Shown here: piece by piece, positions 1-16,951 of the stretch
Layout: each line of letters begins with the position of its first letter
How positions within the stretch are numbered: position 1 is the first letter of the stretch
Source: a virus
DNA: 26,097 nucleotides
IMG/VR virus record: IMGVR_UViG_3300009169_000084
Span: 1 to 26,097 of that record
Direction: 5' to 3' (one strand)
Made by a program: the position numbers and the translations under genes
The notes under the pieces: generated by a model
The model's input: only the letters and a program-made list of their open reading frames with translations
Databases searched by the model: none
Told to the model about the DNA's origin: nothing

Positions 1-8
1 CAAATCAT

Positions 9-81
9 CGGGGCGACTTAATTTGAATCAGCGGCCTCTGGTTCCCAAAACCAGCGCTCTAACCAAGCTGAGCTACGCCCC
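9..81 (-). tRNA. tRNA-Pro (UGG)
   Basis: Cloverleaf on the minus strand. The anticodon stem CTGGT/ACCAG encloses the loop TTTGGGA, giving anticodon UGG. The acceptor stem pairs for six bases (GGGGCG), with a T-T mismatch at the seventh, and the discriminator is G. The T arm has one mismatch. No CCA is encoded. It is the last (most 3') tRNA of the array inside the window. Confidence 0.85.
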
Positions 82-89
82 GTCTGTTT

Positions 90-119
90 ATTTTACAAAG
101 ATTAACTAAAAATGTTTAC
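90..119 (-). promoter_or_regulatory. Putative promoter (TAAACA, 17 bp, TAAAAT)
   Basis: On the minus strand TAAACA (118-113) and TAAAAT (95-90) are exactly 17 bases apart, just upstream of tRNA-Pro. The same arrangement recurs at 5010-5038 and 7624-7652. The copy at 5010 is part of a duplicated block with tRNA-His, so it is not independent; the copy at 7624 has a different spacer. Confidence 0.45.
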
Positions 120-129
120 GATTTAATTG

Positions 130-204
130 GGGTACTTGAGGGGAATTGGACCCCTATTCTCTGCAGTCACAGTGCGGCGTGTTAACCACTACACTACAAG
201 TACC
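130..204 (-). tRNA. tRNA-His (GUG), copy 1
   Basis: Acceptor stem GGTACTT/AAGTACC is perfect. The anticodon loop CTGTGAC gives GUG. The discriminator is C, as expected for tRNA-His. The anticodon stem has one C-A mismatch. A diverged second copy lies at 5050-5124, exactly 4920 bases away. Confidence 0.9.
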
Positions 205-207
205 TAA

Positions 208-278
208 TGACCCAGAGTGGAGTCGAACCACTGTCGAGAGCTTATAAGGCTCCCGTTCTTCCGTTGAACCACTGGGCC
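208..278 (-). tRNA. tRNA-Ile (UAU)
   Basis: Acceptor GGCCCAG/CTGGGTC with A73. T arm AGTGG/CCACT with loop TTCGACT. Anticodon stem GGAGC/GCTCT around CTTATAA gives UAU, which reads AUA. Three bases separate it from tRNA-His. Confidence 0.85.
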
Positions 279-286
279 AGTGTTAA

Positions 287-361
287 TGGGCCACCCCGGA
301 CTCGAACCGGGCACCCCCACGTTATCAGCGTGGTGCTCTGGGCCAACTGAGCTAGTGACCC
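287..361 (-). tRNA. tRNA-Ile (GAU)
   Basis: Acceptor GGGTCAC/GTGGCCC with A73. Anticodon stem CCACG/CGTGG around CTGATAA gives GAU. The stop codon of the nuclease gene at 352-804 lies inside its 5' end, so mRNA and tRNA share ten bases. Confidence 0.92.
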
Positions 362-804
362 CTAATTAAACGTTTAATCACGGACCATGTTAACTGCTTT
401 TTATTTAAGACTTTTACAGTAACATAATTTTGGCTTTGAACTCTGCGAATCTTATCAGCATCCTTCTTTCGTAGGTAATCATTCTTTGGTTCAAGATAAA
501 CATCAAAGTCCGGTAAATAAAAATCAGGATAATATCTATGTGCTTTATTTTCTTTATCAATCCAAGGTAATGGTAGTGGGCGAGTCCAGGAGATGTTATT
601 TTTATCTAGACTCTCTGCAACTTTGACCTCCCAGCTGGAACCTAGAATAACGATAGAATTATCTTTTTTCTTGTAGTAGATCTTGCGATTTGAGTGTTTT
701 TTCTTGTACTTGCCCCTCTTTTTAACATCTTTTCGTTTGTATTTCTTGAAACATTTCTTGTGTGAAAAGCGAGATCTTTTCGAAAAAAGTCTTTTAGTCG
801 ACAT
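352..804 (-). CDS. PD-(D/E)XK-type endonuclease, putative
   Basis: A 150-residue protein. Residues 1-47 are very rich in Lys and Arg, suggesting nucleic-acid binding. The rest has the layout of a small PD-(D/E)XK nuclease: SSWEVKVAESL with Glu59, then YYPDFYLPD with Pro93-Asp94, then YLEPK with Glu105 and Lys107. This arrangement is known in small phage nucleases, including some homing and Vsr-like enzymes; the exact family is not certain. Its TAG stop falls inside tRNA-Ile(GAU). An ATAACTCACTAAT motif lies 17 bases upstream. Its place inside a tRNA array would suit a free-standing homing nuclease, but no target site can be shown. The fold assignment is fairly good; the biological role is open. 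Confidence 0.75.
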   Translation of the reverse strand: MSTKRLFSKRSRFSHKKCFKKYKRKDVKKRGKYKKKHSNRKIYYKKKDNSIVILGSSWEVKVAESLDKNNISWTRPLPLPWIDKENKAHRYYPDFYLPDFDVYLEPKNDYLRKKDADKIRRVQSQNYVTVKVLNKKQLTWSVIKRLIRGH

Positions 805-821
805 CTCATAAATAACAGAAA

Positions 822-834
822 ATTAGTGAGTTAT
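822..834 (-). promoter_or_regulatory. ATAATTCACTAAT-family motif (ATAACTCACTAAT)
   Basis: A one-base variant of a motif found before several genes here. It ends 17 bases before the nuclease start and directly follows the terminator-like hairpin at 842-871, as expected at a junction between transcription units. Confidence 0.5.
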
Positions 835-841
835 GAGATGA

Positions 842-871
842 AGCAAGACCAGTTTTGAGGCTGGTCTTGCT
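842..871 (-). terminator. Hairpin, arms AGCAAGACCAG / CTGGTCTTGCT
   Basis: A perfect 11-bp stem with an 8-base loop follows the leader gene at 887-1066. The same 30 bases recur at 17281-17310 behind another leader gene. Here the minus-strand tail is only weakly T-rich, so termination may be partial. Confidence 0.6.
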
Positions 872-886
872 AAAGTACAAGAGAGG

Positions 887-1066
887 CTACCTACGTCTAA
901 CTATCTTCAAAACTAAATCTCTAGTTAAACCATCTATTGCGTCCAAAACATGAGCGATGGCCTCTTCTTCGTCTAAACCTTCCTCTAAAGCACCTTGATA
1001 GCATTCTCTGATTAAAGATTCTTGCAGATCAGCAGCAATCTTCTTGAGTTCTCTGACTGGGTTCAT
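887..1066 (-). CDS. Leader-family small protein, 59 residues
   Basis: A 59-residue ORF that starts MNPVRELKKIAADLQESL and ends KIVRRR. Its first eleven residues are those shared by the leader genes at 1339, 1588 and 5633. The body (roughly residues 18-59) is acidic in the middle (EEGLDEEEA) and predicted helical, with no recognised domain. It lies 12 bases downstream of the 1079-1339 gene and is followed by the AAGACCAG hairpin. Function unknown. The leader may be an address tag, for example for packaging into the head, but that is inference. Confidence 0.75.
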   Translation of the reverse strand: MNPVRELKKIAADLQESLIRECYQGALEEGLDEEEAIAHVLDAIDGLTRDLVLKIVRRR

Positions 1067-1078
1067 TTGTTTTGACTC

Positions 1079-1339
1079 TTAAGAAATGTCACTCAAATCT
1101 TTACCATGGGGTTTGACTGTGTTCATATAGAAGGACGCCATGCCGCGCACTGATGGGTCATCGCTCTGCATAGCTTTTTTTGCACATGCAATGCATGGAC
1201 CCTTAAAACCTTGTCTTTTGCAATATGCAGTAAATCTCCCCTCTTTGAGATCTGTAGGCCAACCATTTTCTTTTGAAGATTTATCTAAAGATTCTTCTAA
1301 CTCAGTAGCGATCTTCTTTAACTCCCGGACTGGGTTCAT
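1079..1339 (-). CDS. Leader-family protein with CxxC body, 86 residues
   Basis: Starts MNPVRELKKIATELEESL, the shared leader. The body is unlike the other family members: it has Cys at about residues 40, 49 and 52 (GPCIACAKKA) and then SVRGMASFYMNTVKP, a compact helical-looking stretch. The CxxC could bind a metal or be structural. It lies 18 bases downstream of the 1358-1588 gene, so the leader genes at 887-1588 appear to form one operon. The LxE motifs just after the leader resemble the cut sites of T4-type prohead proteases, which would fit removal of a targeting peptide; this is untested. Confidence 0.8.
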   Translation of the reverse strand: MNPVRELKKIATELEESLDKSSKENGWPTDLKEGRFTAYCKRQGFKGPCIACAKKAMQSDDPSVRGMASFYMNTVKPHGKDLSDIS

Positions 1340-1357
1340 TTTGACTCTCTTACAAAG

Positions 1358-1588
1358 TCACTCTGACATCCAAGAATCAATTTCAGTTGAGTCTTCTGCA
1401 TTCTCCCACTTAAAAAGTGCCACACTTGCGGCCCAAGATTTTGCGTCTTCAAAATACTCTTGTGCATCAGATCTAGACCAAAACCTATGTCCAAACTCAC
1501 GTCCATCATGGTAGTAACCACCAACGCTATATGGAACAAAAGATTCCAACTCAGATGCAATCTTCTTTAGCTCTCTAGCTGGGTTCAT
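1358..1588 (-). CDS. Leader-family protein, 76 residues
   Basis: Start chosen at the ATG of MNPARELKKIASELE, with GGAG seven bases upstream; a longer TTG start adds only four residues. The body is rich in aromatic residues (YYHDGREFGHRFW, then KSWAASVALFKWENAED) and matches no family I recognise. It shares only the leader with the genes on either side. Such a conserved head with unrelated tails is typical of sorting-signal families. Upstream lies an eight-codon remnant of another leader. Confidence 0.8.
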   Translation of the reverse strand: MNPARELKKIASELESFVPYSVGGYYHDGREFGHRFWSRSDAQEYFEDAKSWAASVALFKWENAEDSTEIDSWMSE

Positions 1589-1617
1589 TTTTTTCTCCAA
1601 AATAAATAACTATTCAC

Positions 1618-1644
1618 TCAAAGTAGTTCTTCTGCTGGGTTCAT
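1618..1644 (-). pseudogene. Orphan leader remnant (MNPAEELL, stop)
   Basis: ATG AAC CCA GCA GAA GAA CTA CTT TGA. The first seven residues match the leader form MNPAEEL seen at 1954, then the frame stops. It looks like the scar of a deleted or recombined leader gene, and it places leader starts at 1588, 1644 and 1954. Confidence 0.7.
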
Positions 1645-1697
1645 ATCTTTCTCTTTTAAATAGAACTGTATTTTCTGGATTTTAGTAACTGGAATTT

Positions 1698-1954
1698 TTA
1701 TTTAGATTTCACAATTTTAAAATGAATACCAGTAGATCCTGTTTGATTCATAACAAAATCTAATTTAAACTTAGATAACTCATAGGCTATAGTTTTTATC
1801 AAATCAAAAGGATCATCTGTAGCTGCCCAAACCCAATCCCCGATGGGCTCCCCGTCTTCATCTTCCTCTATTTCAGAATCATCTTGAATAATCTTACTCA
1901 CCTTTTTTTGACAACTCATTTGCAATCTTTTTAAGTTCTTCTGCTGGATTCATT
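1698..1954 (-). pseudogene. Leader-family gene split by a one-base frameshift at A7
   Basis: The leader begins at 1954 (MNPAEELKKIANELSKK) but its frame stops after two more codons. The body is open in the +1 frame (SKIIQDDSEIEEDEDGEP, and so on, to ...GIHFKIVKSK at 1698). The two frames meet at a run of seven A on the minus strand (plus-strand T run near 1903-1909). One A fewer would fuse them into an intact protein of about 85 residues. It may be a sequencing error, a real mutation, phase variation or programmed +1 slippage. The body is acidic and has no recognised domain. The upstream DNA is nearly the same as that of the 17332-17868 gene. Confidence 0.7.
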
Positions 1955-1997
1955 TTTTTTGACTTTCAAAAAATCAAGTAACATTTTTAGATAAAGT

Positions 1998-2010
1998 ATT
2001 AGTGAATTAT
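1998..2010 (-). promoter_or_regulatory. ATAATTCACTAAT motif
   Basis: Exact copy, 43 bases before the leader start at 1954. About 60 bases around it, from the AT-rich flank to the sequence just before the gene, are nearly identical to 17880-17940 in front of the other leader gene. Confidence 0.55.
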
Positions 2011-2047
2011 AAAAAAAATGTGAGCATGTGTTAAAATTAGTACTTAA

Positions 2048-2117
2048 CTCCAGTAGAGAGGCGAACTCCTAATCTTCGGCTTAATAGACCGCTATCTTAC
2101 CTTTAGACCACACTGGA
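2048..2117 (-). tRNA. tRNA-Asn-like, anticodon AUU
   Basis: Acceptor TCCAGTG/TACTGGA (last pair G-T) with G73. The anticodon region GCGGT-CTATTAA-GCCGA parallels bacterial tRNA-Asn (GCGGA-CTGTTAA-TCCGT), but position 34 is A rather than G. The T loop TTCGCCT is atypical. Both the 5' TCC start and G73 support Asn. It may be decayed or may read AAU by an unusual route. Confidence 0.6.
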
Positions 2118-2126
2118 ATAAATTAT

Positions 2127-2387
2127 TTACTGTTTCTCATCTACAAACCTAACTTTTGTAATCATTTCAGACAATCCGTTTTCAAACTCTAAAATCTTCT
2201 TTATGTCAATTAACCCCAATGGACAGATCTTTTCCCTACAATTACCCTCTGTATCTTCTGGATTCTTGGTGTGATTACAGAAAATCAAAGCAGGCAAAGA
2301 TTCGCGAAACTTTGGACCGCCAGTCTGTTCATTTTCTTCCCACTGACAGCATTGGAACTTGCACTGCTTACCAAACCAGTCAGACAT
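2127..2387 (-). CDS. Cys-rich protein, 86 residues
   Basis: The frame stays open upstream through the tRNA-Gln region, but GAGG eight bases before the ATG at 2387 marks the start MSDWFGKQCKFQCCQWEE. It has a CxxxCC pair near the N-terminus and single Cys later (IFCNH, GNCREKICPLG), a pattern of four or more potential metal ligands, so a zinc- or cluster-binding fold is possible. The C-terminal third is helical (IDIKKILEFENGLSEM). It lies between tRNA-Gln and tRNA-Asn. I do not recognise the family. Confidence 0.75.
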   Translation of the reverse strand: MSDWFGKQCKFQCCQWEENEQTGGPKFRESLPALIFCNHTKNPEDTEGNCREKICPLGLIDIKKILEFENGLSEMITKVRFVDEKQ

Positions 2388-2436
2388 AACTACCTCAAAT
2401 TTTGATGAAGATTCACCAGAATAAATATCAAACTCA

Positions 2437-2508
2437 CTGCCTCGGCGCGACTCGAACGCACATACTGGGATCCAAAGTCCCATGTCCTGCCAATTGGACG
2501 ACGAGGCA
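2437..2508 (-). tRNA. tRNA-Gln (UUG)
   Basis: Acceptor TGCCTCG/CGAGGCA is perfect, with G73 as usual for Gln. Anticodon stem TGGGA/TCCCA around CTTTGGA gives UUG. Confidence 0.92.
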
Positions 2509-2527
2509 AAACTTCAACTAAACTCTT

Positions 2528-2878
2528 CTACTTCTTTTCTTTCTTATACGCTTCCTCAAGATTTTTGTTTATTTCTTTTATAAGCAAATTCCTTCTTTCT
2601 ATAGCTTGAAGTATGCTTTTTTCAAGTTCTATGTCAACTTCATCTTTAGAATTTAACTTCAAAGCTTTTGCTGCCATTATGTCTTCCCCATAAACATAAC
2701 AAGTATCAGTCCAAAAACGCGGCAATACAGTAGCAATGCTTAGAGCAACATTATCTTCCGTGAGAAGATCTATTTCTTCTTTTAAAGCGTCAAAACCAAT
2801 CTTTTTAGCTTTTGCTTCATTCTCAGCGACGACAAGAGCTTCTACTTCAATACGAACGGTAAAGCATTTCTTTGACAT
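2528..2878 (-). CDS. Unknown small acidic/helical protein, 116 residues
   Basis: The frame extends upstream through tRNA-Glu, but MSKKCFTVRIEVEALVVAEN at 2878 is the sensible start. Residues 1-50 look like a beta-alpha unit (FTVRIEVEALVVAENEAKAKKIGFDAL). This resembles the small phage proteins whose strand is followed by an A/E/K-rich helix, but no family can be named. The C-terminus is a long charged helix (LQAIERRNLLIKEINKNLEE), possibly a coiled coil. It sits between tRNA-Glu and tRNA-Gln. Confidence 0.75.
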   Translation of the reverse strand: MSKKCFTVRIEVEALVVAENEAKAKKIGFDALKEEIDLLTEDNVALSIATVLPRFWTDTCYVYGEDIMAAKALKLNSKDEVDIELEKSILQAIERRNLLIKEINKNLEEAYKKEKK

Positions 2879-2901
2879 TTTTGGATCCTTAATAAATTTA
2901 A

Positions 2902-2973
2902 TACCCCGCAGGAGAGTCGAACTCCTGTTGCCAGAGCGAAAGTCTGATGTCCTCACCGCTAGACGAGCGGGGC
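2902..2973 (-). tRNA. tRNA-Glu (UUC)
   Basis: Acceptor GCCCCGC/GCGGGGT (first pair G-T) with A73. Anticodon stem TCAGA/TCTGG around CTTTCGC gives UUC. T arm AGGAG with loop TTCGACT. Confidence 0.88.
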
Positions 2974-3082
2974 GCTTAAATTTCTCTAACAATCTTCTTT
3001 ATTTACTTTTATCTTACAAAGATTAGATCATTCTATTTATAGAATAAGAAGTTTAAGCATTTTGGTTTGACGCATTGTAGAA

Positions 3083-3523
3083 TTAGGTTGTAGCTTCTAT
3101 ATAAGCAGCTTGTGATATATAGGCTGTTTCTCGATTTGGGGTGAGATAACCCATTGCTTCAGACAAAAAAAGTTCACCACCAACATAACTCCAAATAGGT
3201 GAAACTATACCTTCTTTTACATCAGGCGGAAGTTCTGTAATTGTTATATCATCCCCATCCAGCATTTCCGAAAAATACATATTTAAATGAATAAGATCGG
3301 AAAGAGTCCACTCAGGAGTTCCACTTGGTGTTACTCTCAAACCTGTCCAAGGTATTTGATTCATTTCTTCGACAAATTCATTAACATTGTCCCATTCATG
3401 CTGAGCAACAGCATCTCGAAGAGTCTTTACATTATCAACTCGGTGCAAAATCACATAAGGACCGTCATCTTTGAGTTGAAAGGCAAGTTTTCTTAAATTA
3501 GATACTATACCCGATTTTTTCAT
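3083..3523 (-). CDS. Unknown protein, 146 residues
   Basis: Starts MKKSGIVSNLRKLAFQLKDD, a basic amphipathic N-terminus that recalls the LKKIAxxL leader in character but not in sequence. The middle is acidic (LHRVDNVKTLRDAVAQHEWD, and DGDDITITELPPD). No recognised domain. The gene stands alone, with about 110-120 non-coding bases on each side. An inverted pair of TCTATAAATAGAAT sequences flanks it (3030-3043 and 3580-3593). The core TATAAATA is the T4 late-promoter word, though nothing else ties it to that use here. Confidence 0.75.
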   Translation of the reverse strand: MKKSGIVSNLRKLAFQLKDDGPYVILHRVDNVKTLRDAVAQHEWDNVNEFVEEMNQIPWTGLRVTPSGTPEWTLSDLIHLNMYFSEMLDGDDITITELPPDVKEGIVSPIWSYVGGELFLSEAMGYLTPNRETAYISQAAYIEATT

Positions 3524-3641
3524 TTAAGGTTCCTTAAATTAGGTTTACTTTGCATTTTAAAAACTTATTAAATAGCGCCTCTATAAATAGAATATTAAAA
3601 TCTTTTCTTATTCTCTAAGTTTATCAAAAGCAGTCATTTTA

Positions 3642-4007
3642 CTAGGTTTCACTAAAAAATCCTTTCTCATCCTTTAACTCTTCAATTTCTATGCCACCTT
3701 CTCTTAACCATTTTGCTACTAGATGTCTGTGACAAAATTTGCCTTTGCCCTCATAACATACTAAAATAGCATCATTACCTAAATCTCTAAGAACCTCTTC
3801 TTGTGTTAAATTTCTATCTTTTATACATTTTAAGTAGATCTTTGTGTACTCTTCTTCATTGATTTTACCTGATTTGTAATCTTTAACTAACTGCATTGGT
3901 GGCCCTAACTTGGCGTAGTGCTTACCCTTAAACCACCAGGGTTTTCCAGAAGTAATTGCCACTGCATTTGGATGATTCTTGCATTTTGCGAAGTACGATG
4001 TTTTCAT
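3642..4007 (-). CDS. DUF488-family protein, 121 residues
   Basis: The start at 4007 (MKTSYFAKCKNHPNAVAI) was chosen because the longer frame runs through tRNA-Tyr. DUF488 hallmarks are present: LGPPMQLVKDYKSGKINEEEYTKIY, then ILVCYEGKGKFCHRHLVAKWL, where CYE...CHRH is the family signature. The family is widespread in bacteria and phages and its biochemical role is unclear. The length is typical. It lies between tRNA-Tyr upstream and an unknown gene downstream. Confidence 0.85.
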   Translation of the reverse strand: MKTSYFAKCKNHPNAVAITSGKPWWFKGKHYAKLGPPMQLVKDYKSGKINEEEYTKIYLKCIKDRNLTQEEVLRDLGNDAILVCYEGKGKFCHRHLVAKWLREGGIEIEELKDEKGFFSET

Positions 4008-4027
4008 CTGATTTCTCTTAAAGTTGA

Positions 4028-4108
4028 TGTGGCAGGTAGGAGTTGAACCTACACAGGCGTAGCCGGCGGATTTACAGTCCGTTGAGCTCACCGATGCTCA
4101 GCTGCCAC
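4028..4108 (-). tRNA. tRNA-Tyr (GUA)
   Basis: Class II tRNA with a long variable arm. Acceptor GTGGCAG/CTGCCAC with A73. Anticodon loop CTGTAAA within CGGA/TCCG gives GUA. T loop TTCAACT. Confidence 0.92.
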
Positions 4109-4111
4109 TAA

Positions 4112-4184
4112 TGGACTGGATGGGGTTTGAACCCACGACCTCTGCATTGCAAACGCAGCGCTCTCCCAGCTGAGCTACCAGCCC
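4112..4184 (-). tRNA. tRNA-Ala (UGC), copy 1
   Basis: Acceptor GGGCTGG/CCAGTCC with A73. Anticodon stem CTGCG/TGCAG around TTTGCAA gives UGC. Three bases from tRNA-Tyr. Its sequence differs from the other two UGC genes outside the anticodon loop. Confidence 0.92.
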
Positions 4185-4188
4185 AAAT

Positions 4189-4656
4189 TTACTTTCTTCT
4201 ACGACCATAATCCCAACGATCTTCCCAGAAAAGGTCTTTTGAATAATCACCTGGATGTGGATACTTTTCCTCAAATGGCTTGTTTAAACGCTCAGTATAC
4301 CACTCACGCCCAGCATCTGTAAGATCTTCTTCCCAAAACTTTTTTAGTTCCTCACTCACATCGTCGTTGTATTCTTCTTGAGGCTGACACATCTGATCAT
4401 ATTTAATCAAAGCATCTTCGATCATTTGACTGTGACGAATAAAAATTGTACTCTTATCGGAATCAACGAAAACATTATCTCTAAAGCTGCCTGAAATTGA
4501 AACATCATGAAAACTAGATCTATAGGCATGAACAGCTTGCAATTGAATTTCAGCTAACACAGGTGGCGTAATTTTCTCACATATAAACGCTCTTAAAACC
4601 AACTTGACTTTTCGTGCGATTTCTGATCGCAAATTTCTAAATTTAAATTCTGACAT
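4189..4656 (-). CDS. Unknown protein, 155 residues
   Basis: Starts MSEFKFRNLRSEIARKVKLV behind GGAGAG. The N-terminal half is helical, basic and hydrophobic. A central stretch (SISGSFRDNVFVDSDKSTIFI) looks like beta strands. The C-terminal half is very acidic and aromatic (EELKKFWEEDLTDAGREWY) and closes with the basic tail LFWEDRWDYGRRRK. No known family recognised. It sits between two tRNA-Ala genes and ends four bases from the first. Confidence 0.75.
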   Translation of the reverse strand: MSEFKFRNLRSEIARKVKLVLRAFICEKITPPVLAEIQLQAVHAYRSSFHDVSISGSFRDNVFVDSDKSTIFIRHSQMIEDALIKYDQMCQPQEEYNDDVSEELKKFWEEDLTDAGREWYTERLNKPFEEKYPHPGDYSKDLFWEDRWDYGRRRK

Positions 4657-4680
4657 TAAATCTCTCCTAAAACCAAATTA

Positions 4681-4753
4681 TGGACCTGATCGGGCTCGGA
4701 CCGACTGCCTCCTGCTTGCAAAGCAGGCGCTCTAACCAACTGAGCTACACCCC
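4681..4753 (-). tRNA. Chimeric tRNA-Ala (UGC), mismatched acceptor stem
   Basis: From the D arm onward it is almost the same as tRNA-Ala at 6488-6560 (anticodon stem CCTGC/GCAGG, loop TTTGCAA). The 5' end GGGGTGTAGCTCAGTTGGTT instead matches tRNA-Pro at 9-81 (GGGGCGTAGCTCAGCTTGGTT). The 5' GGGGTGT and 3' CAGGTCC do not pair: only the first three and the fifth positions can pair at all, with wobbles. It is probably a recombinant, non-functional tRNA. Confidence 0.75.
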
Positions 4754-4984
4754 GTCTTCTTGATCAACAGCTAACGCAGCCCCAGTCTTTAAAAAACACT
4801 GCAAGCTGAAATCATCTTTTTCTTTTAAAAGTTCTAAAATGATTTCCTGTTCGAAATGCCATCTCTCAGCGTTTGGTAAATTTTGTTTAATTGCACTTTG
4901 AACTTCTAAAAGACGCAAGGCTATTTCTTCCCTAGAGCTCCTAAGAAATCCACGAATTATTTTAAAACGAACAATATCCCTCAT
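4745..4984 (-). CDS. Unknown helical protein, 79 residues
   Basis: Begins MRDIVRFKIIRGFLRSSREE and is almost entirely helical, with alternating charged and Leu/Ile residues (LRLLEVQSAIKQNLPNAERW, EIILELLKEKDDF). No known domain. The last codons GAC-GGG-GTG-TAG lie inside the 5' end of the chimeric tRNA, so the stop is the conserved TAG of the tRNA. The C-terminal residues may therefore be dictated by the tRNA. A TAAACA/TAAAAT promoter-like element (5010-5038) lies about 25 bases upstream. Confidence 0.65.
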   Translation of the reverse strand: MRDIVRFKIIRGFLRSSREEIALRLLEVQSAIKQNLPNAERWHFEQEIILELLKEKDDFSLQCFLKTGAALAVDQEDGV

Positions 4985-5009
4985 TCTGTACTCTTTAAAT
5001 TTAACATTA

Positions 5010-5038
5010 ATTTTACAAAGATTAACTAAAAATGTTTA
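5010..5038 (-). promoter_or_regulatory. Putative promoter (TAAACA, 17 bp, TAAAAT)
   Basis: TAAACA at 5038-5033 and TAAAAT at 5015-5010, 17 bases apart. It is identical to 90-118 because both are part of the duplicated tRNA-His block, but here it precedes a protein gene (4745-4984). Confidence 0.45.
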
Positions 5039-5049
5039 CGATTTAATTG

Positions 5050-5124
5050 GGGTACTTGAGGGGAATTGGACCCCGATTCTCCGCGTCCACAGCGCAGCGT
5101 GTTAACCGTTACACTACAAGCACC
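5050..5124 (-). tRNA. tRNA-His (GUG), copy 2
   Basis: Acceptor GGTGCTT/AAGTACC, with one G-T pair, and C73. Anticodon stem CTGCG/CGCGG around CTGTGGA gives GUG. Its anticodon stem pairs better than that of copy 1. Confidence 0.9.
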
Positions 5125-5128
5125 TAAA

Positions 5129-5205
5129 GCCGGAAAATGGATTCGAACCAATCAGGGGCGTAATCCCCTACGCAAGGGGCCCCGGCAACCATCTTTGCTT
5201 CCGGC
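5129..5205 (-). tRNA. tRNA-like gene, identity uncertain (GCG in loop)
   Basis: Ends pair perfectly (GCCGGAA/TTCCGGC), the discriminator is T, and the T loop TTCGAAT is canonical. A D-like arm GCAA/TTGC with GG in its loop is present. The middle is odd: extra bases (CGGGG) precede CCCC-TTGCGTA-GGGG, whose loop would give GCG, and GGGG/CCCC can also pair around it. T73 and the acceptor resemble tRNA-Gly or tRNA-Cys. It is either an aberrant tRNA or a decayed one. Confidence 0.5.
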
Positions 5206-5220
5206 ATTGTTATTACATTA

Positions 5221-5249
5221 AACAAGACCAGTTGTTTACTGGTCTTGTT
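5221..5249 (-). terminator. Hairpin, arms AACAAGACCAGT / ACTGGTCTTGTT
   Basis: A perfect 12-bp stem with a 5-base loop, 19 bases after the stop of the leader gene 5268-5633. The arm core AAGACCAG/CTGGTCTT is the same as in the hairpins at 842 and 17281, also behind leader genes. Confidence 0.65.
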
Positions 5250-5267
5250 TAGTAATTTTAGATTAAC

Positions 5268-5633
5268 TTAGTCGTAATCTAAAGCAATTATCAACTCTCC
5301 CGCTCGAGGAGAATTTACGATAATAATATTTCCGCCAACCTCAGAAGTTTCATAACCTACCCCAAGATTTTCTGGTTGTTTATCCAAAATCATTACTTCC
5401 GTGTCACCACCCCCACCATAAGGTGCAAGGGCGTATCCTGAACGTCCAATAGAATCTATAAATTCTAGCATTCCTTTTCTATCTCGTGAAGCAAAAACCT
5501 TATATTTTGTATCTGATTGAAGTAAGTAAATACCTCCTTTAAGACTTTGTATACCGACAGCAGAAAGATCACCAAGTTCAATAAAATCTTCAAGAGCATC
5601 AGCAATCTTTTTGAGTTCTCTAACTGGGTTCAC
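5268..5633 (-). CDS. Leader-family protein, 121 residues (GTG start)
   Basis: Reads MNPVRELKKIADALEDFIEL from a GTG start at 5633, with GAGGTG upstream. After the shared leader the body appears mainly beta: GIYLLQSDTKYKVFASRDR, then GYALAPYGGGGDTEVMILD and VGGNIIIVNSPRAGELIIAL. The Gly-rich turn YGGGG is notable. It shares no similarity with the other bodies. It is a complete cassette: ATAATTTACTAAT 45 bases upstream, leader, body, AAGACCAG hairpin downstream. The fold and the function of the body are unknown. Confidence 0.8.
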   Translation of the reverse strand: MNPVRELKKIADALEDFIELGDLSAVGIQSLKGGIYLLQSDTKYKVFASRDRKGMLEFIDSIGRSGYALAPYGGGGDTEVMILDKQPENLGVGYETSEVGGNIIIVNSPRAGELIIALDYD

Positions 5634-5678
5634 TTGTTCACCTCAAAAACAAAAACTAAATATATTTTTGAATAAAGT

Positions 5679-5691
5679 ATTAGTAAATTAT
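5679..5691 (-). promoter_or_regulatory. ATAATTCACTAAT-family motif (ATAATTTACTAAT)
   Basis: A one-base variant, 45 bases before the GTG of the leader gene. The bases after it (ACTTTAT...AAAAAT) also match the upstream regions of the leader genes at 1954 and 17868. It directly follows a terminator. Confidence 0.55.
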
Positions 5692-5695
5692 AAAA

Positions 5696-5728
5696 AATAT
5701 TAATATCATTGGAAATGATATTAATATT
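5696..5728 (-). terminator. Terminator, 15-bp stem followed by T-run
   Basis: Arms AATATTAATATCATT/AATGATATTAATATT with a 3-base loop, followed on the minus strand by TTTTTTATAA. It lies after the tRNA-like gene at 5732-5803. Confidence 0.7.
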
Positions 5729-5731
5729 CAT

Positions 5732-5803
5732 CTTTCTAAGTAGAAATTGAACCTGCAGCTTTGTGACTAAAACCACTTACTCTACCAATTAAGATATCGA
5801 AAA
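5732..5803 (-). tRNA. Degenerate tRNA, Lys-like
   Basis: Aligns with bacterial tRNA-Lys through AATTGGTAGAGTA and GCAGGTTCAATT. The anticodon stem GTGG/TCAC leaves only six loop bases (TTTTAG), where UUU would be the expected anticodon. The acceptor stem has a mismatch and two G-T pairs, and the T stem has a C-A mismatch. Probably decayed. Confidence 0.45.
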
Positions 5804-5845
5804 ATAAATTATATATTGTTTCACACGATTTAATTTAGCGTAATT

Positions 5846-6409
5846 TCACTTTTCACCAATCTGTGTATTATCGCTAAACAAAATAGACTTTGGCTCCCAA
5901 ATCACTTTCATATTTTCAAGAGATGTATTTCTTAATCTAACATGTTCGTCCATAAATTGATTAAAATCAATACTACCAATCCAGTCTATCTTAGCATTGG
6001 CATCTATTGAATCTGATATTGTTATTCTTAAAGAGGAAATTTCTGACCCAAATAAATCTGTAAATCGAATAACCCCAGTAAATGCTCTAATCTTTTTATT
6101 AGATAAATTCTGACAATCACATTTGAATAAAATACGATCATTCATCCGTCCTGCACGATAATTAGATTTATCAAACATCTTCTCAACAACTGTAACCATT
6201 ATAGTACGACGAAGTTCTTTTCCAAGATCCTCATGGCGTTTTTTGGCTTCCTGAGCAATTCTTTCTTCTTCAACGACTTCTTTCTTTTTATCTGCTTCCC
6301 ATTTCTTTTGTGTTTCAATTATTTCACCAAGAGTCTTTCCAGTAACAGATGTAGATTTACCTTGAAGTGATTTTTCCATACCATTACGAAAATTAAATGC
6401 TATTAACAT
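5846..6409 (-). CDS. Unknown protein with FxLYD-like beta domain, 187 residues
   Basis: Residues 25-75 are a charged, probably coiled-coil region (KKWEADKKKEVVEEERIAQE). Residues 85-187 form a beta-rich domain of a kind seen in bacterial exported proteins: FKCDCQNLSNKKIRAFTGVI, then FTDLFGSEISSLRI, then a conserved W in DWIGSIDFNQF and a final WEPKSILFSD. No signal peptide is visible. The frame remains open about 20 codons upstream of the ATG, up to a TAA, with convincing codons (EKEDYFEDLEDVHGLTFGE) but no ATG, GTG or TTG. The N-terminus may thus be truncated or use a rare start. GGCGAG precedes the ATG at 6409. Confidence 0.7.
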   Translation of the reverse strand: MLIAFNFRNGMEKSLQGKSTSVTGKTLGEIIETQKKWEADKKKEVVEEERIAQEAKKRHEDLGKELRRTIMVTVVEKMFDKSNYRAGRMNDRILFKCDCQNLSNKKIRAFTGVIRFTDLFGSEISSLRITISDSIDANAKIDWIGSIDFNQFMDEHVRLRNTSLENMKVIWEPKSILFSDNTQIGEK

Positions 6410-6487
6410 TCTGCACTCGCCGAATGTAAGTCCATGAACATCTTCTAGATCTTCGAAATAATCTTCTTTCTCTATTTTAATCTTTTA

Positions 6488-6560
6488 TGGACTCGATCGG
6501 ACTCGGACCGACTGCCTCCTGCTTGCAAAGCAGGCGCTCTCCCAGTTGAGCTACGAGCCC
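6488..6560 (-). tRNA. tRNA-Ala (UGC), copy 3
   Basis: Acceptor GGGCTCG/CGAGTCC with A73. Anticodon stem CCTGC/GCAGG around TTTGCAA gives UGC. Its body is the likely parent of the chimeric tRNA at 4681-4753. Confidence 0.92.
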
Positions 6561-6594
6561 ATCTTCTCTTAACGAATGAAACGAGCTTTAAGAC

Positions 6595-6849
6595 TCACTT
6601 AATAGTAAAAGGATCTTCGCCAATCTGAAAATTCTTAAAGTGTTTCATTCCCAGAAGACCAATTTCTTCTGGTTTCAAGCCATCTAAAGTTTGAATCTCT
6701 TCTTGATGTGTAATTCCTGGGCTACCATCTGGAGCTTGAGTGATCTTTAAACTTTCAATCAAATAAGAAATCTGTCCCTCTGCCAGATCTATACCGAGGA
6801 TCTTGGCGAATGAAGCAAAACCTTCCTGTGGCTTGTCGTTAGAGTTCAT
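6595..6849 (-). CDS. Unknown small protein, 84 residues
   Basis: Start set at the ATG at 6849 (MNSNDKPQEGFASFAKILGI), which has GGAGG five bases upstream; the TTG four codons earlier overlaps this site. The sequence alternates short helices and acidic loops (GITHQEEIQTLDGLKPEEIG). No Cys, no membrane segment, no recognised family. It follows the 6863-7201 gene by 13 bases and is probably co-transcribed. Confidence 0.75.
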   Translation of the reverse strand: MNSNDKPQEGFASFAKILGIDLAEGQISYLIESLKITQAPDGSPGITHQEEIQTLDGLKPEEIGLLGMKHFKNFQIGEDPFTIK

Positions 6850-6862
6850 ACCAACCTCCAAA

Positions 6863-7201
6863 CTAATAATGACTACCGGGCCTCCCTAACAATTCTTTAA
6901 GTAGCAAAATATCGCTACTTTGCCAACTAATTTCTACAGATCCACATGGCCCCCTACCTGGAGTACCCCTTGGACAGTCGACTCTAAGCCAAGAGGAACT
7001 TATAATAAAACTATCCGAAAATATGGCTATTGTACTGTATGAAGTAGGAATCTGTTTTCTGTTTTTCAAATAAGAAGTAATGGGATCTGAAATGCTGCTC
7101 TTTGCTTTTTCATAAAACTCAATATTTTCGCCATATCTCACATATGTATAAAATCCATCTTTTAATTCTGAAACTCTTAATTGCTTAACATTCTCATACA
7201 T
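6863..7201 (-). CDS. Unknown protein, 112 residues
   Basis: Starts MYENVKQLRVSELKDGFYTY behind a strong GGAGG. The first half has the rhythm of a small alpha/beta protein. Later segments (YSTIAIFSDSFIISSSWLRV) suggest beta strands, then comes a Pro/Gly-rich loop with two Cys (DCPRGTPGRGPCG). The C-terminus is EISWQSSDILLLKELLGRPG. I do not recognise it. It lies 29 bases downstream of tRNA-Leu. Confidence 0.75.
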   Translation of the reverse strand: MYENVKQLRVSELKDGFYTYVRYGENIEFYEKAKSSISDPITSYLKNRKQIPTSYSTIAIFSDSFIISSSWLRVDCPRGTPGRGPCGSVEISWQSSDILLLKELLGRPGSHY

Positions 7202-7230
7202 TTAACACCTCCAGTCTGATATTATATTAG

Positions 7231-7312
7231 TGCGCGAGAAGAGACTTGAACTCTTACACCTTACGGTACCAGATCCTAAGTCTGGCGCGTATGCCAATTC
7301 CGCCACTCGCGC
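7231..7312 (-). tRNA. tRNA-Leu (UAG)
   Basis: Class II tRNA. Acceptor GCGCGAG/CTCGCGC with A73. Anticodon stem CCAGA/TCTGG around CTTAGGA gives UAG. The variable arm is long. The first G of the tRNA is the last base of the HNH gene stop codon. Confidence 0.93.
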
Positions 7313-7602
7313 TACTTCTTCTTTTTCTTCTCCTTAAAGCAAACACTAAAATCTTTCTTTTTCCTGACCCACTTAATCCAAGTTTGTATTTGTGGGTGTT
7401 CTCTAATCGCTTGTAGCGTGTCTAACTCTAATTTTAAAACATTGTTATCAAATAACTGATGTAATGTGTCACCACAATTACAACAAACTAAAATAGATTC
7501 TTTACCATCCTTGCTCTTAGGCACTAAATGATGTTTTTCTTGATAATGTGGCGGAGTTGAGCGCCCACAAATAGCGCATATAGTATTTTCTGTTGTTTGC
7601 AT
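7312..7602 (-). CDS. HNH-type protein, 96 residues
   Basis: Motifs in order: CAICGR (residues 9-14), then EKHHLVPKSKDGKE with the paired His, then VCCNCGDTLHQLF with a CxxC and the final His. This CxxC-HH-CxxC-H order is that of a compact zinc-stabilised HNH domain, known from small phage and bacterial proteins with DNA nicking or cleaving activity. The rest (LDTLQAIREHPQIQTWIKWV) is helical and ends in a run of Lys. The stop TAG overlaps tRNA-Leu by one base. A TAAACA/TAAAAT promoter-like element lies about 20 bases upstream. It may act as a homing or recombination nuclease; activity is unproven. Confidence 0.8.
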   Translation of the reverse strand: MQTTENTICAICGRSTPPHYQEKHHLVPKSKDGKESILVCCNCGDTLHQLFDNNVLKLELDTLQAIREHPQIQTWIKWVRKKKDFSVCFKEKKKKK

Positions 7603-7623
7603 CTTATTTCTCTAAACTTGCTT

Positions 7624-7652
7624 ATTTTACAAGAAGCAAAAAAGAATGTTTA
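7624..7652 (-). promoter_or_regulatory. Putative promoter (TAAACA, 17 bp, TAAAAT)
   Basis: TAAACA at 7652-7647 and TAAAAT at 7629-7624, 17 bases apart. It directly abuts the 3' end of tRNA-Asp and precedes the HNH gene. The spacer differs from the copies at 90 and 5010, so conservation of the boxes and distance is informative. Confidence 0.5.
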
Positions 7653-7726
7653 CGGAAGCGACGGGACTTGAACCCGCAATCTCTGGATTGACAATCCAGC
7701 ACGTTAACCAATTACGCTACGCCTCC
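7653..7726 (-). tRNA. tRNA-Asp (GUC)
   Basis: Acceptor GGAGGCG/CGCTTCC with G73. Anticodon stem CTGGA/TCCAG around TTGTCAA gives GUC. Confidence 0.93.
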
Positions 7727-7731
7727 ATAAA

Positions 7732-7841
7732 CAGGGTGAGGATTTTAAACCTTCACCCTGAGAGTGTTAAGTGTTACTGATCAAGCCTGTGACCCTCAGA
7801 TCACGTTTGGCTAAACTCAAATTATCAAAGATCAAATCTTA
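7732..7841 (-). other. Structured spacer between tRNA-Trp and tRNA-Asp
   Basis: A stretch of about 110 bases without a gene. It holds a hairpin CAGGGTGA/TCACCCTG (extended by GG/CC, 7732-7760), just before tRNA-Asp, and a second one with GTGA/TCAC and AGCC/GGCT arms (7784-7812). It could be a processing signal, a weak terminator or a small stable RNA. Confidence 0.45.
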
Positions 7842-7913
7842 CGGGCTGGCCGCGACTTGAACGCGGAGCACCGGCTTTGGAGACCAGCATGTTGCCAATT
7901 ACACCACCAGCCC
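7842..7913 (-). tRNA. tRNA-Trp (CCA)
   Basis: Acceptor GGGCTGG/CCAGCCC with G73, typical of Trp. Anticodon stem CTGGT/GCCGG (two G-T pairs) around CTCCAAA gives CCA. Confidence 0.93.
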
Positions 7914-7919
7914 ATTTGA

Positions 7920-7990
7920 AGCAGGTGGAGGGAATCGGACCCTCGTCTCCAGGTTGGAGGCCTGGAATGCTACCATTGAACCACACCTGC
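7920..7990 (-). tRNA. tRNA-Gly (UCC) with C33
   Basis: Acceptor GCAGGTG/CACCTGC with T73, as expected for Gly. Anticodon stem CCAGG/CCTGG around CCTCCAA gives UCC, but position 33, almost always U, is C. It is the first tRNA after the structured leader at 8016-8215. Confidence 0.88.
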
Positions 7991-13351: not shown

Positions 13352-13737
13352 GCTCCCCACTCCGCCAAAGTATACAAGTCTGTATACTCATAATCTAAAA
13401 TTTGACCTAAAAAGTCATCTAAATTATCACCTCGCCCATATGCCTTCAAAAGAGATCTCAAACCCACTTCATAAAACCTTTGAGCATCACTCAAAGCACC
13501 CTGTAAAAGATTAAGAGTATCTTTTTGAGCATCTATATCTAACTCATCCCATGGTACAATTAAATTCTCTGGGTTTTCTACAGATTCTAATGCGTTTAAG
13601 ATAGCTTTAAATTTATAATCAGTCTTCTCTATAACTTGATTTAAAACTATCTTAATCTCATTACAAAGACGAAAATACTCCTCCTTTGAGACATTGTCAG
13701 CATAGCGTAAAAGAACTCTTTTAGCATACTGGTTCAT
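13348..13737 (-). CDS. Unknown helical protein, 129 residues
   Basis: MNQYAKRVLLRYADNVSKEE begins an almost wholly helical, acidic protein (EIKIVLNQVIEKTDYKFKAI, ALSDAQRFYEVGLRSLLKAY). The basic amphipathic first 15 residues are similar in character to the head-targeting-like leaders elsewhere in the window, though not in sequence. The C-terminus LDYEYTDLYTLAEWGA is acidic and aromatic. The stop overlaps the next start by four bases. Function unknown; the operon position suggests a structural or assembly role. Confidence 0.75.
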   Translation of the reverse strand: MNQYAKRVLLRYADNVSKEEYFRLCNEIKIVLNQVIEKTDYKFKAILNALESVENPENLIVPWDELDIDAQKDTLNLLQGALSDAQRFYEVGLRSLLKAYGRGDNLDDFLGQILDYEYTDLYTLAEWGA

Positions 13738-13802
13738 AGATTAATACCAAAAAGTCTATTTAGTGAAATGTATAAGTTAATTATTTAATGAAAGGGGGAG
13801 AA

Positions 13803-14063
13803 CTACTCTTTTGAGCGCTTAGATTTCTTGCGTGGAGATTGTTCTTCAATTGGTTGGGACTTAATTGAAGAAGCGCTCTTCTTTTGAATAGTTGGGAAGG
13901 ATTTCTTTAAAACAGTAACCCAATTAGTGCGAATAGCACTTCTAAGGGTAGAAGATTTTGCGTATTCAGCCTCTGAAAAGTTACCAATTTCACTTAAACG
14001 AAGAGTTCTTGAAATTTCTGAAAAAGAAAGACTTTTCACATTACATTGAACTTTAACTTGCAT
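13803..14063 (-). CDS. Unknown basic-tailed protein, 86 residues
   Basis: MQVKVQCNVKSLSFSEISRT starts with a probable beta strand, followed by helices (LRLSEIGNFSEAEYAKSSTL) and a strongly basic, Ser-rich tail (PRKKSKRSKE). The tail suggests contact with nucleic acid or with an acidic partner. Eight bases separate it from the 14072-14236 gene. No recognised domain. Confidence 0.72.
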   Translation of the reverse strand: MQVKVQCNVKSLSFSEISRTLRLSEIGNFSEAEYAKSSTLRSAIRTNWVTVLKKSFPTIQKKSASSIKSQPIEEQSPRKKSKRSKE

Positions 14064-14071
14064 TTCTACCT

Positions 14072-14236
14072 CTAGACAGTAACAGCCGTAATCTGATTAT
14101 TCAAAGCATTATAACCCATAGCCTTGAACGGCGTAAAAGTTCCATCAGTTACAAGATGAACATCCATGGTAAGGGTCGCTGGCCCATAGTATGGATAAAG
14201 TATAAAGATTTCTTGTTGAATTGTGTGGGTTTCCAT
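14072..14236 (-). CDS. Unknown small protein, 54 residues
   Basis: ATG at 14236 with GGAG upstream reads METHTIQQEIFILYPYYGPA, then TLTMDVHLVTDGTFTPFKAM and ...QITAVTV, ending in TAG at 14072. Hydrophobic alternation suggests a small beta protein. Gaps of only two and eight bases to the neighbouring genes and a good ribosome site make it a likely real gene of the late operon. Not recognised. Confidence 0.75.
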   Translation of the reverse strand: METHTIQQEIFILYPYYGPATLTMDVHLVTDGTFTPFKAMGYNALNNQITAVTV

Positions 14237-14238
14237 AG

Positions 14239-14790
14239 TTACTCCTTGTTCTCTTGAATGTCAAAATCCGGCATATCAGAAGATTCAAGAAAAGACGAAT
14301 CACCCTGTGGCATTCCCTGAACAATAATAAAGACCGGAACATCACTACCAATCTCAGGCATCTCTTGCTGAATCTGTTCCATAAGAGATTGCAGATCAAA
14401 ATTAGGCATACCATTAAGCTCAGTTTGATTCATAGGAGGCTGCGAATCAAGTGCTGGCATACCACATTCAGGGCAACAATTACAAGCTTTTTTAGCATTT
14501 TCAAGCATACTGGCGACCTTGAGCAAAGCTCCAGCAACTTTAGCCTCTAAATCCTCGCTGACAACTTTTTCACCCTTATAGGCTAAAATAGCATCCCAAA
14601 CATATTTCATCAAACCAAAAAGATTATTCTTTGAATCAATAACAGATCTCATCTTCTTTTTGGATTTATCATTAATGTTAGAATGGTCAATCTTTTCAAC
14701 TAGAAGCTGTTTAGCAGAATCAAGATCAAGTTTCTCAATCTGTTGAGCAACATCTTCTAGAACAGAAACAAAGTCACTGCGATCTGACAT
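14239..14790 (-). CDS. Unknown protein with Cys cluster, 183 residues
   Basis: The N-terminal 110 residues are helical (MSDRSDFVSVLEDVAQQIEK, then DSAKQLLVEKIDHSN). Residues 113-120 (CNCCPECG) hold four Cys, possibly a metal site. The C-terminal third is a low-complexity tail rich in Met, Pro, Gln and Asp, repeating MPxxDxQ-like units (GMPALDSQ, GMPNFDLQ, DMPDFDIQ). Together this looks like a flexible virion or scaffold-type protein, but no family is recognised. It ends two bases before the next start. Confidence 0.72.
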   Translation of the reverse strand: MSDRSDFVSVLEDVAQQIEKLDLDSAKQLLVEKIDHSNINDKSKKKMRSVIDSKNNLFGLMKYVWDAILAYKGEKVVSEDLEAKVAGALLKVASMLENAKKACNCCPECGMPALDSQPPMNQTELNGMPNFDLQSLMEQIQQEMPEIGSDVPVFIIVQGMPQGDSSFLESSDMPDFDIQENKE

Positions 14791-14832
14791 GCTACTTACT
14801 CCAAAAATCTATTAGAATACAAAATTAGTAGT

Positions 14833-16158
14833 TTAATACTCGATGTTCTCAAAAGTAATCGTTCTACCTTTAACCTGCGGCTTATCCTCTTTCTCTGGTT
14901 TATCTGTTATAACTGGACTATCTGTTGTAACACCTGGTGGTTCTCGTGTATTATCAACAATTGGTATTGGTCCATCAATTGTAGCACTTGGATTTACTGG
15001 AACCTTATATCTAATATCTTTCGTATCAATATATTGAGCATTAAAGTGTTGCTGAAAGATAGCACCACTAGCACCTTCAGGTGTTATTGCACCAACTGAA
15101 TATCTCTCACCGTTTGGTCTAACAATAAAATCTCTCTGAGAAAGTAATGGGCTTGGTCCAGTCCAAGTGTTAAATGAATAATTAACATTTAAACCTAATT
15201 CAGTTAAATCAATATTTTTTGGAGCCTCTGGCGGGGCAATAATAACTTCAAAGGGGCCATCATAACCACCAACAAACCCTGTGCCATAACAAATTGGGCA
15301 ATCATTGTAACTGCGCTTATGTGTATCAGACCAATCTGTACAACGCTGCCCCATCCATTTGCGAATAAAAACTTTAACTCTTTCTCCAGCTTGTTGAAGA
15401 ATCCAGCGATTGCGCCGAACAGCTTCTCGCCACATCCAATTTATTCGCTCAACTTGCTGATAGGTTTCTGCTTCAACCTGATCTAAAGGTGTCTCAATTT
15501 CTTCTTGAGTATCTTTACGTTTTCCAACCGTTGTTACTTTATAAAAGATTCGCTGATCTAGATCGAATGGTACCTGATTAATATTATAACGGTAGGTACA
15601 CAGAACTCTTGAAGCTGGATTATTAAAATCTGGTAAAATTGCAGGTATAACTTGTCTTAAAGTATGATTAAAATAACCAGAGCTAATTAAAAAGACCTCA
15701 GCCGTAGAACCAATGATTCTATAGATTGGAGTAACAACTAAGTTCCCATCCCCATTATCTATCTTCACAATAATATCTTTAGAATCGCTAGCATATTGAA
15801 AAGCGTCACTATCTTTAACAATTGGACGGTGAGATGTTTTAAAGATATATTCTTTGCGTTCATTGTCTCCACGACTAATAAAGCTGCCTGTTACATTTTC
15901 GTCGATAATAAGTTCATTTTTTACTCGATCTCTAAAAGTAAGAGTTGTTGATAAGATTGAATTTATTTTTTTAAATGGGCCGAATTCACTGTTATGAGAT
16001 TTATATACATTAACGCCGAGAATATCAAAATCTTGATTATCTGGGTCAACAGCCGGGTTGTCAAAACGGATATCTAGAGCACCTGTTATAAAGGGATGAA
16101 CACAAAAAGCGTTTCGAGGACCTTTTGGAAAAAGATTGTTTGTCTTTGCTTGCCACAC
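14833..16158 (-). CDS. Probable neck/connector structural protein, 441 residues
   Basis: Starts at GTG (16158). Residues 20-90 look like a fibronectin-type beta domain (DFDILGVNVYKSHNSEFGPF). Residues 100-192 contain one beta module like those in the sheath gene, ending CTYRYN. Residues 240-300 carry RCTDWSDTHKRSYNDCPICY followed by GTGFVGGYDG, a Cys-rich segment with a CPxC that I have seen in head-tail connector-type proteins of large phages (from memory). The C-terminus is Pro-rich and probably flexible. It lies between the sigma-like gene and small virion genes. A connector role is inferred from position and modules. Confidence 0.6.
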   Translation of the reverse strand: MWQAKTNNLFPKGPRNAFCVHPFITGALDIRFDNPAVDPDNQDFDILGVNVYKSHNSEFGPFKKINSILSTTLTFRDRVKNELIIDENVTGSFISRGDNERKEYIFKTSHRPIVKDSDAFQYASDSKDIIVKIDNGDGNLVVTPIYRIIGSTAEVFLISSGYFNHTLRQVIPAILPDFNNPASRVLCTYRYNINQVPFDLDQRIFYKVTTVGKRKDTQEEIETPLDQVEAETYQQVERINWMWREAVRRNRWILQQAGERVKVFIRKWMGQRCTDWSDTHKRSYNDCPICYGTGFVGGYDGPFEVIIAPPEAPKNIDLTELGLNVNYSFNTWTGPSPLLSQRDFIVRPNGERYSVGAITPEGASGAIFQQHFNAQYIDTKDIRYKVPVNPSATIDGPIPIVDNTREPPGVTTDSPVITDKPEKEDKPQVKGRTITFENIEY

Positions 16159-16177: not shown

Positions 16178-16951
16178 TTACTGAAGACTGGAGCGTAAAA
16201 AATATTTCTTGTGAATTGCTTCAGCCGCTTGTGAAAGATCTTCATTACCAATACTTTCGGCAAACTCAACAATTGATTTGCGCATCTCTTCCATAATCTG
16301 TGAAATATAGCCACGAGAAATACCAAGCTCTTCCTGAATTTGCTGTGCAGTTAAACCTGCAAAAAGCATATCAAAAATCTTACCTAATTTCTCTTTCTTA
16401 CTGTGTAAGAAAGCACTAATCTGACCAACGAGACTATGAAAGTCGGATTCATCATTTGCAGTATCGCGAATATCTTCAATTAATTCCGCTGGAACGCCGC
16501 CACCCTCTTCCTCATCTGTCACAAGAGATACTTGTCCAACGTCTTTTGATTTTTCATTCATATAATCAGCAATTCTACTTTTAATATTGCGATAAAGCAT
16601 ATTGGTGAATTTACCCAGTTCTGGCTTATAACGCTCAATCCAGTCAGGAAGCTGTGAGAAAACTTGTGCTTGAACTTCCTCTATGTCTGCCCCGCGTAAG
16701 CCAGATTTATATAAAATACCTGTAACCATGCCAGAAATTGTAAAACCTTCAGGTATTTGGTCTTCAGGTATGCCTTTCTCGCGGGCTAATTCAAGAAACC
16801 AACGATCAATTGCTTTAAGCGTTTCTTCAGATAATCTCTTGAAAAAAGCATAGTATCTAGAACCTTCTCTAACTCTTGAAGAAGTGATCTGTCTATACGC
16901 TTTAACAAGAAGATCTAAAGAGGCCCGTTTAAGTGCTGAAACCTTAAACAT
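16178..16951 (-). CDS. Sigma-70-like RNA polymerase factor, 257 residues
   Basis: Start set at MFKVSALKRASLDLLVKAYR (ATG at 16951) because GGGAG stands just before it; the ATG at 16972 lacks this. Residues 88-134 (ADIEEVQAQVFSQL, YKPELGKFTNMLYRNIKSRI) match the region-2 style of sigma factors, and residues 197-226 (FAGLTAQQIQEELGISRGYI) form a region-4 helix-turn-helix. An acidic linker (DEEEGGG) joins them. The length and two-domain layout fit a group 4-like sigma factor. It sits inside the structural operon, so it probably drives late genes. It overlaps the upstream gene by eight bases. The ATAATTCACTAAT motif is a candidate target. Confidence 0.8.
   Translation of the reverse strand: MFKVSALKRASLDLLVKAYRQITSSRVREGSRYYAFFKRLSEETLKAIDRWFLELAREKGIPEDQIPEGFTISGMVTGILYKSGLRGADIEEVQAQVFSQLPDWIERYKPELGKFTNMLYRNIKSRIADYMNEKSKDVGQVSLVTDEEEGGGVPAELIEDIRDTANDESDFHSLVGQISAFLHSKKEKLGKIFDMLFAGLTAQQIQEELGISRGYISQIMEEMRKSIVEFAESIGNEDLSQAAEAIHKKYFLRSSLQ

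Follow-up and report, generated by a model that had tools for sequence, protein, structure and literature searches.

The stretch of DNA analysed here (the window) is the whole IMG/VR record IMGVR_UViG_3300009169_000084, a phage fragment of 26,097 bases. Almost all of its genes are on the minus strand. It has 14 tRNA genes and tail-type genes, and a head module is not present. Five intact genes, a frame-broken one and a remnant, all on the minus strand, start with a short common N-terminal leader of about 15 residues, as a preliminary description of this DNA had reported. Three of the intact genes lie in tandem with the broken gene and the remnant at 887-1953. The first (887-1066, ATG at 1066) encodes 59 amino acids and has the leader MNPVRELKKIAADLQ at 1022-1066, and the second (1079-1339, ATG at 1339) encodes 86 amino acids with the leader MNPVRELKKIATELE at 1295-1339. 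The third (1358-1588) encodes 76 amino acids from the ATG at 1588, with the leader MNPARELKKIASELE at 1544-1588; its listed open reading frame (ORF) runs longer, to a TTG at 1600. The remnant (1618-1644) reads MNPAEELL and then a stop codon. The frame-broken gene (1698-1953) starts at an ATG at 1953, correcting the position 1954 given earlier, and reads MNPAEELKKIANELSKKGE followed by a stop, with the leader at 1909-1953. Its body resumes in another frame (ORF 1698-1925), and the frame breaks where seven A stand in a row. The two remaining intact genes are a GTG-started gene of 121 amino acids amid the tRNA genes (5268-5633, leader MNPVRELKKIADALE at 5589-5633) and an ATG-started gene of 178 amino acids (17332-17868, leader MNPARELKKIAAVLG at 17824-17868), the latter flanked by ORFs at 16944-17225 and 17996-18337.

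A search of related phages, which had been suggested as a check, found five further leader genes in IMGVR_UViG_3300017987_004587 (87,557 bases, hereafter G001), the single clear second carrier in IMG/VR. They form a tandem trio at 53082, 53494 and 53853 and a pair at 15422 and 15714. With these, the leader was counted six times in the 26-kb window and five times in this one 87-kb relative. Matching DNA for nine window proteins was found in G001, and in one of the nine the match is the leader alone. The window ORF at 17996-18337, a neighbor of the leader gene at 17868, has its orthologue at 417-737 of G001, where only 123 bases separate it from the next gene and no leader gene is found. Because this orthologue has no adjacent leader gene, leader genes probably come and go.

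The leader consensus is M-[ND]-P-x-[RKE]-ELKKIA-x-x-[LI]. When the ten intact proteins from the window and from G001 are aligned, M1 and the core E6-L7-K8-K9-I10-A11 never vary, P3 and L14 hardly do, and the alignment stops after residue 15 or 16. The bodies behind the leader (43 to 174 residues) had been called dissimilar, and this was borne out by BLASTP comparison of body against body, in which the best match was no better than E=0.2. The leader had also been called an amphipathic basic helix. Its amphipathic character was retained (shuffle P 0.004-0.07), whereas a basic leader was rejected because the net charge is approximately neutral. AlphaFold models of two leader proteins, computed without an alignment, had a mean predicted local distance difference test (pLDDT) score of 43 and were uninformative. 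No body homologues of the gene at 17868 were confirmed in IMG/VR.

Recent duplication as the sole cause of the leader similarity was examined at the codon level. The ELKKIA codon identity among the window genes was 0.478, compared with 0.459 expected from independent codon choice (P=0.37). The amino acids have thus stayed the same although synonymous choice is saturated, and the likeness of the window leaders is not accounted for by recent duplication. The DNA upstream of the window leader genes (-60 to -21) is 32% identical, and a conserved upstream element or translation cassette was therefore rejected for the window. The codon diversity and the unlike upstream DNA together point to selection at the protein level. 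In G001 the ELKKIA codon identity is raised (0.633, P=0.025), some copies being more recent, and two neighboring leader genes have near-identical upstream DNA.

A search of 257 Gb of bacterial and archaeal GTDB genomes for M-[ND]-P-x-[RKE]-ELKKIA, written as degenerate DNA, gave no match, and a similar pattern, with up to two mismatches allowed, gave none in 35 related huge-phage records (approximately 5 Mb). A chance motif was rejected on the basis of these empty searches. A hidden Markov model (HMM) of the 16-residue leader recovered the proteins of the window and of G001 (E values 1e-8 to 1e-11); in 13 other phage data sets it had no match with E below 1. The ELKKIA leader was not found in the INPHARED phage collection. 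The first pattern matches outside G001 (L006-L009) were taken as chance; the one in L007 is inside a longer ORF, and those in L006 and L009 are lone N-terminal matches on contigs not shown to be related. Nothing relevant on a leader common to proteins of huge phages was found in open-access papers. Within the data searched, the leader is limited to the phage of the window and one relative, and we conclude with high confidence that it is a real, protein-level and phage-specific feature.

The head genes of this phage type were read from G001. It encodes a major capsid protein (MCP; phrog_2522, E 1e-48) and a head maturation protease (phrog_18299, 3e-11), which has a scaffold-like tail; portal and terminase genes were read from the sequence and homologues. 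The prohead protease sought as a further check was thus found in G001, the nearest of the relatives to have a head module, and not in the window fragment. L031, closely related to G001 (95% identical), has a capsid protein that shares 37% identity with its counterpart in Bacillus phage G, 51% with that of Tunturiibacter phage Tunturi_5 and 77% with that of an uncultured 485-kb phage. Relatives of this capsid protein are encoded by 455 IMG/VR stretches, on contigs of up to 618 kb. The major capsid, portal and terminase genes of G001 are of the phage G type. The initial 50 kb of phage G yielded no leader family.

N-termini were compared within genomes across related phages, with pairs with similar bodies removed and with protein middles and C-termini as controls. 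N-terminal sharing exceeded that of the controls in the window, G001, G010, G011, G016 and G28/G26, and was weaker in G019. The main common leader beyond the window and G001 was LRSKLIRLAHENPELRPHLLPLLKEA (the LIRLA leader); other phage-G-type huge phages use this second leader (LRSKLIRLAHENPELRPHLLPLLK), which is unrelated to the window leader. An iterated HMM of the LIRLA leader matched 65 proteins in ten data sets, at E values down to 1e-16, and no window or G001 protein was among them. When G26 was left out as apparently the same phage as G28, 55 LIRLA proteins in nine records remained. At the DNA level, an exact pattern for the second leader occurs in 67 stretches of IMG/VR and in 13 of the genome collection; in INPHARED the leader was found only in one uncultured 485-kb record, in 11 places. 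The LIRLA leader family in phage-G-type huge phages is newly defined here. Like the window leader, it is short, is carried by many dissimilar proteins of phages with related MCP, portal and protease, and has a [KR]-[IL]-A core. It differs in its length of approximately 28 residues, in a sequence without detectable homology (hhalign probability 0.8%) and in being also C-terminal and internal. The 65 copies counted outside G26 comprise 36 N-terminal, 8 C-terminal and 21 internal ones; 9 of the 21 internal copies have a Met just upstream, possibly the true start. In G013 (L217, L219, L221) the second leader is C-terminal in four of five copies.

Domains were recognized in the LIRLA cargo in one case each: ParBc_2, LPD1, DnaJ and S-AdoMet lyase, the ParBc_2 and LPD1 matches scoring below the Pfam curated cut-offs. 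A polyprotein-like ORF of 1238 amino acids in G011 carries the leader three times, between modules of ParB-like and other types, and its last leader-plus-module unit is a stand-alone gene in G010 (60851). Four leader genes of G010, one of them with LPD1, lie less than 9 kb from the MCP gene. At 106959 of G019, a body matching a G010 LIRLA protein follows a differing start, the lone hint of a third leader type. Two G011 proteins have a second short element, YLxxHPxADPxxH, right after the LIRLA leader, and other proteins have it close to the N-terminus (L210 8184-11900, L211 1548-2600, L221 11250-11771 and L124 5894-6958). Other N-termini are shared by bodies of differing length, MSVLRRRLDQILETLWP in G010 and MASPRKLFQAIGATQQSARDAIGA in G016; such N-termini, common to proteins of unequal length, were seen at 23114, 40712 and 45085 of G010 and at 33102, 133177 and 135562 of G016. 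They are probably structural anchors and not leaders.

Both leader cores fit the pattern [KR]-[TVIL]-A, the window leader with K-I-A and the LIRLA leader with R-L-A. In the first 70 residues it was counted 17 times for the MCP, 14 times for the protease and 18 times for the portal, compared with 3.8, 3.4 and 3.6 in shuffles. It is carried by 32 of 35 head proteins versus 20% of 2235 other genes, and [KR]-x-A is found near the end of the second leader in 36 of 65 copies against a background of 9%. Since the motif was picked after inspection and the tested head proteins are mutually homologous, these counts are a lead and not proof. As a lead, [KR]-[TVIL]-A would fit a candidate cleavage site better than LxE/IxE does.

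Three known systems were compared with the leader. For capsid targeting of the T4 internal protein IPIII, only the first 10 residues are required (PMC9026906). The capsid-targeting sequence (CTS) of T4 IPI-III and Alt resembles the window leader as a short N-terminal leader on dissimilar small proteins, with a head maturation protease encoded (here in G001). The preliminary description had expected LxE-type sites after the leader, which were present in only 2 of 11 leaders, those at 1066 and 1339; the conserved LxE/IxE site of the T4 signal is thus absent from the leader of the window and G001, and cleavage at such a site was rejected. The T4 set also differs from the 11 leader genes described here, which come from two partial genomes and were compared by features, at the level of the genes. 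Because the cleavage-site feature failed and the virion location is inferred, we do not class the window leader as a T4-type CTS. In phage P1, the 30 N-terminal residues of DarB are sufficient for capsid targeting, and a consensus was sought among the Dar protein N-termini and none was found (PMC9024508). A short N-terminal peptide thought to send cargo into the head is common to DarB and the window leader, whereas the consensus is strict only in the latter. Head proteins of SPN3US are cut by the prohead protease after AXE, most losing N-terminal propeptides of 20-254 residues (PMC10052503). The likeness to SPN3US and phiKZ-type phages is that of giant phages with protease-cleaved head proteins; the differences are the propeptide length, the cut after AXE and the MCP, which in the present phages belongs to the phage G type.

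The invariant core, codon diversity, unrelated bodies, copies in a relative and the analogous LIRLA family together make it a well supported reading that the leader acts as a selected protein-level sorting or docking signal. This supports in part the interpretation given earlier, without the T4-type LxE/IxE cleavage. More specifically, we propose with a probability of about 0.5 that, by analogy with the T4 and P1 signals, the leader is a capsid-targeting, perhaps cleaved, cargo signal. It would be a portable N-terminal peptide of a phage-G-type huge phage that binds the prohead core and so loads unrelated cargo proteins into the prohead. It would be removed, probably by the head maturation protease of the phage and perhaps at [KR]-[TVIL]-A. 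We infer that the leader proteins are packaged in the head as cargo of the virion and injected into the host along with the DNA.

Several observations weigh against this proposal, among them the rejected LxE/IxE site and the post hoc choice of the [KR]-[TVIL]-A motif. The leader proteins of these uncultured phages are known from their genes alone, and no recognized domain was found in the cargo bodies of the window. Since the window has no head gene, its protease is that deduced from G001, and no leader family was found in Tunturi_5, which has the same kind of protease. Some LIRLA leaders lie at the C-terminus or inside the protein, whereas the T4 CTS is N-terminal. Over five genomes, LIRLA genes were not clustered with the MCP gene (mean distance rank 0.497) and were not biased to its strand (32 of 42 versus 31.7 expected).

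The scattered leader genes, not tied to the head cluster, would also suit a docking helix for another phage or host partner in the infected cell, such as the membrane, polymerase, replication compartment or a chaperone, with no role in packaging. In the window the leader is a short helix of amphipathic character, and the second leader is placed at N-termini, at C-termini and internally, as a binding motif would be. However, [KR]-[TVIL]-A is also enriched in the N-terminal tails of head proteins, and some LIRLA cargo types (ParB nuclease, LPD1, S-AdoMet lyase) resemble known injected or anti-restriction phage proteins. We regard such docking as unlikely, though deserving real weight. Intracellular cargo types (LPD1, DnaJ and ParB) likewise argue against a virion attachment segment that would hold small proteins of the decoration or tail-associated kind on the outside of the particle and not inside. 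The anchor-like common N-termini with differing bodies in the related phages G010 and G016 would favor it, but they are longer and mostly on large proteins, whereas the window leader proteins are mostly of 59-121 amino acids and lie amid tRNA and small genes. Surface attachment is therefore very improbable.

Ordinary paralogy would make these genes a duplicated family with bodies diverged beyond recognition, or one whose start was kept by recombination or a translation-start cassette. The tandem array at 887-1953 speaks for it, as do the raised codon identity and the near-identical upstream DNA of two neighbors in G001. In the window, however, the ELKKIA codons agree about as often as independent choice would predict, the upstream DNA is not conserved, and the bodies vary in size and make-up and show no BLASTP similarity; in sister phages the analogous LIRLA leader is also found at C-termini and between modules. 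Paralogy is thus an improbable explanation.

A broader proposal extends capsid targeting to the phage-G-type huge phages as a group. Address tags may be specific to lineages, with two or more unrelated sequences in all, and serve to load diverse effectors into the head; tag-cargo units may be joined into polyproteins for the head maturation protease to cut. We consider this extension possible but somewhat doubtful. If it is true, the injected proteins of a huge phage could be predicted from the tag, by sequence alone, and dark genes of uncultured huge phages would become a list of injected candidates, approximately 55 with the second leader (in nine records) and 11 with the first. Capsid targeting, well studied in single cases such as the T4 internal proteins and DarB of P1, would be widened to a general system with interchangeable tags, and proteins could be loaded into very large capsids by means of new tags.

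Some further features of the two fragments were observed. The 14 minus-strand tRNA genes at 1-7990 of the window are interspersed with small genes, and the Ile, His and Ala types occur twice each. By eye, a short ORF and a divergent ORF of 375 amino acids at 57618-59198 of G001 resemble an IS200/TnpB pair, and a long gene run at 25-50 kb resembles sugar or glycan biosynthesis enzymes. The homologous structural proteins at 24759-25988 of the window and 13653-15029 of G001 each have an intein-like insertion, at differing protein positions (Pfam Intein_splicing, 3.8e-5 in the window and 4.2e-15 in G001).
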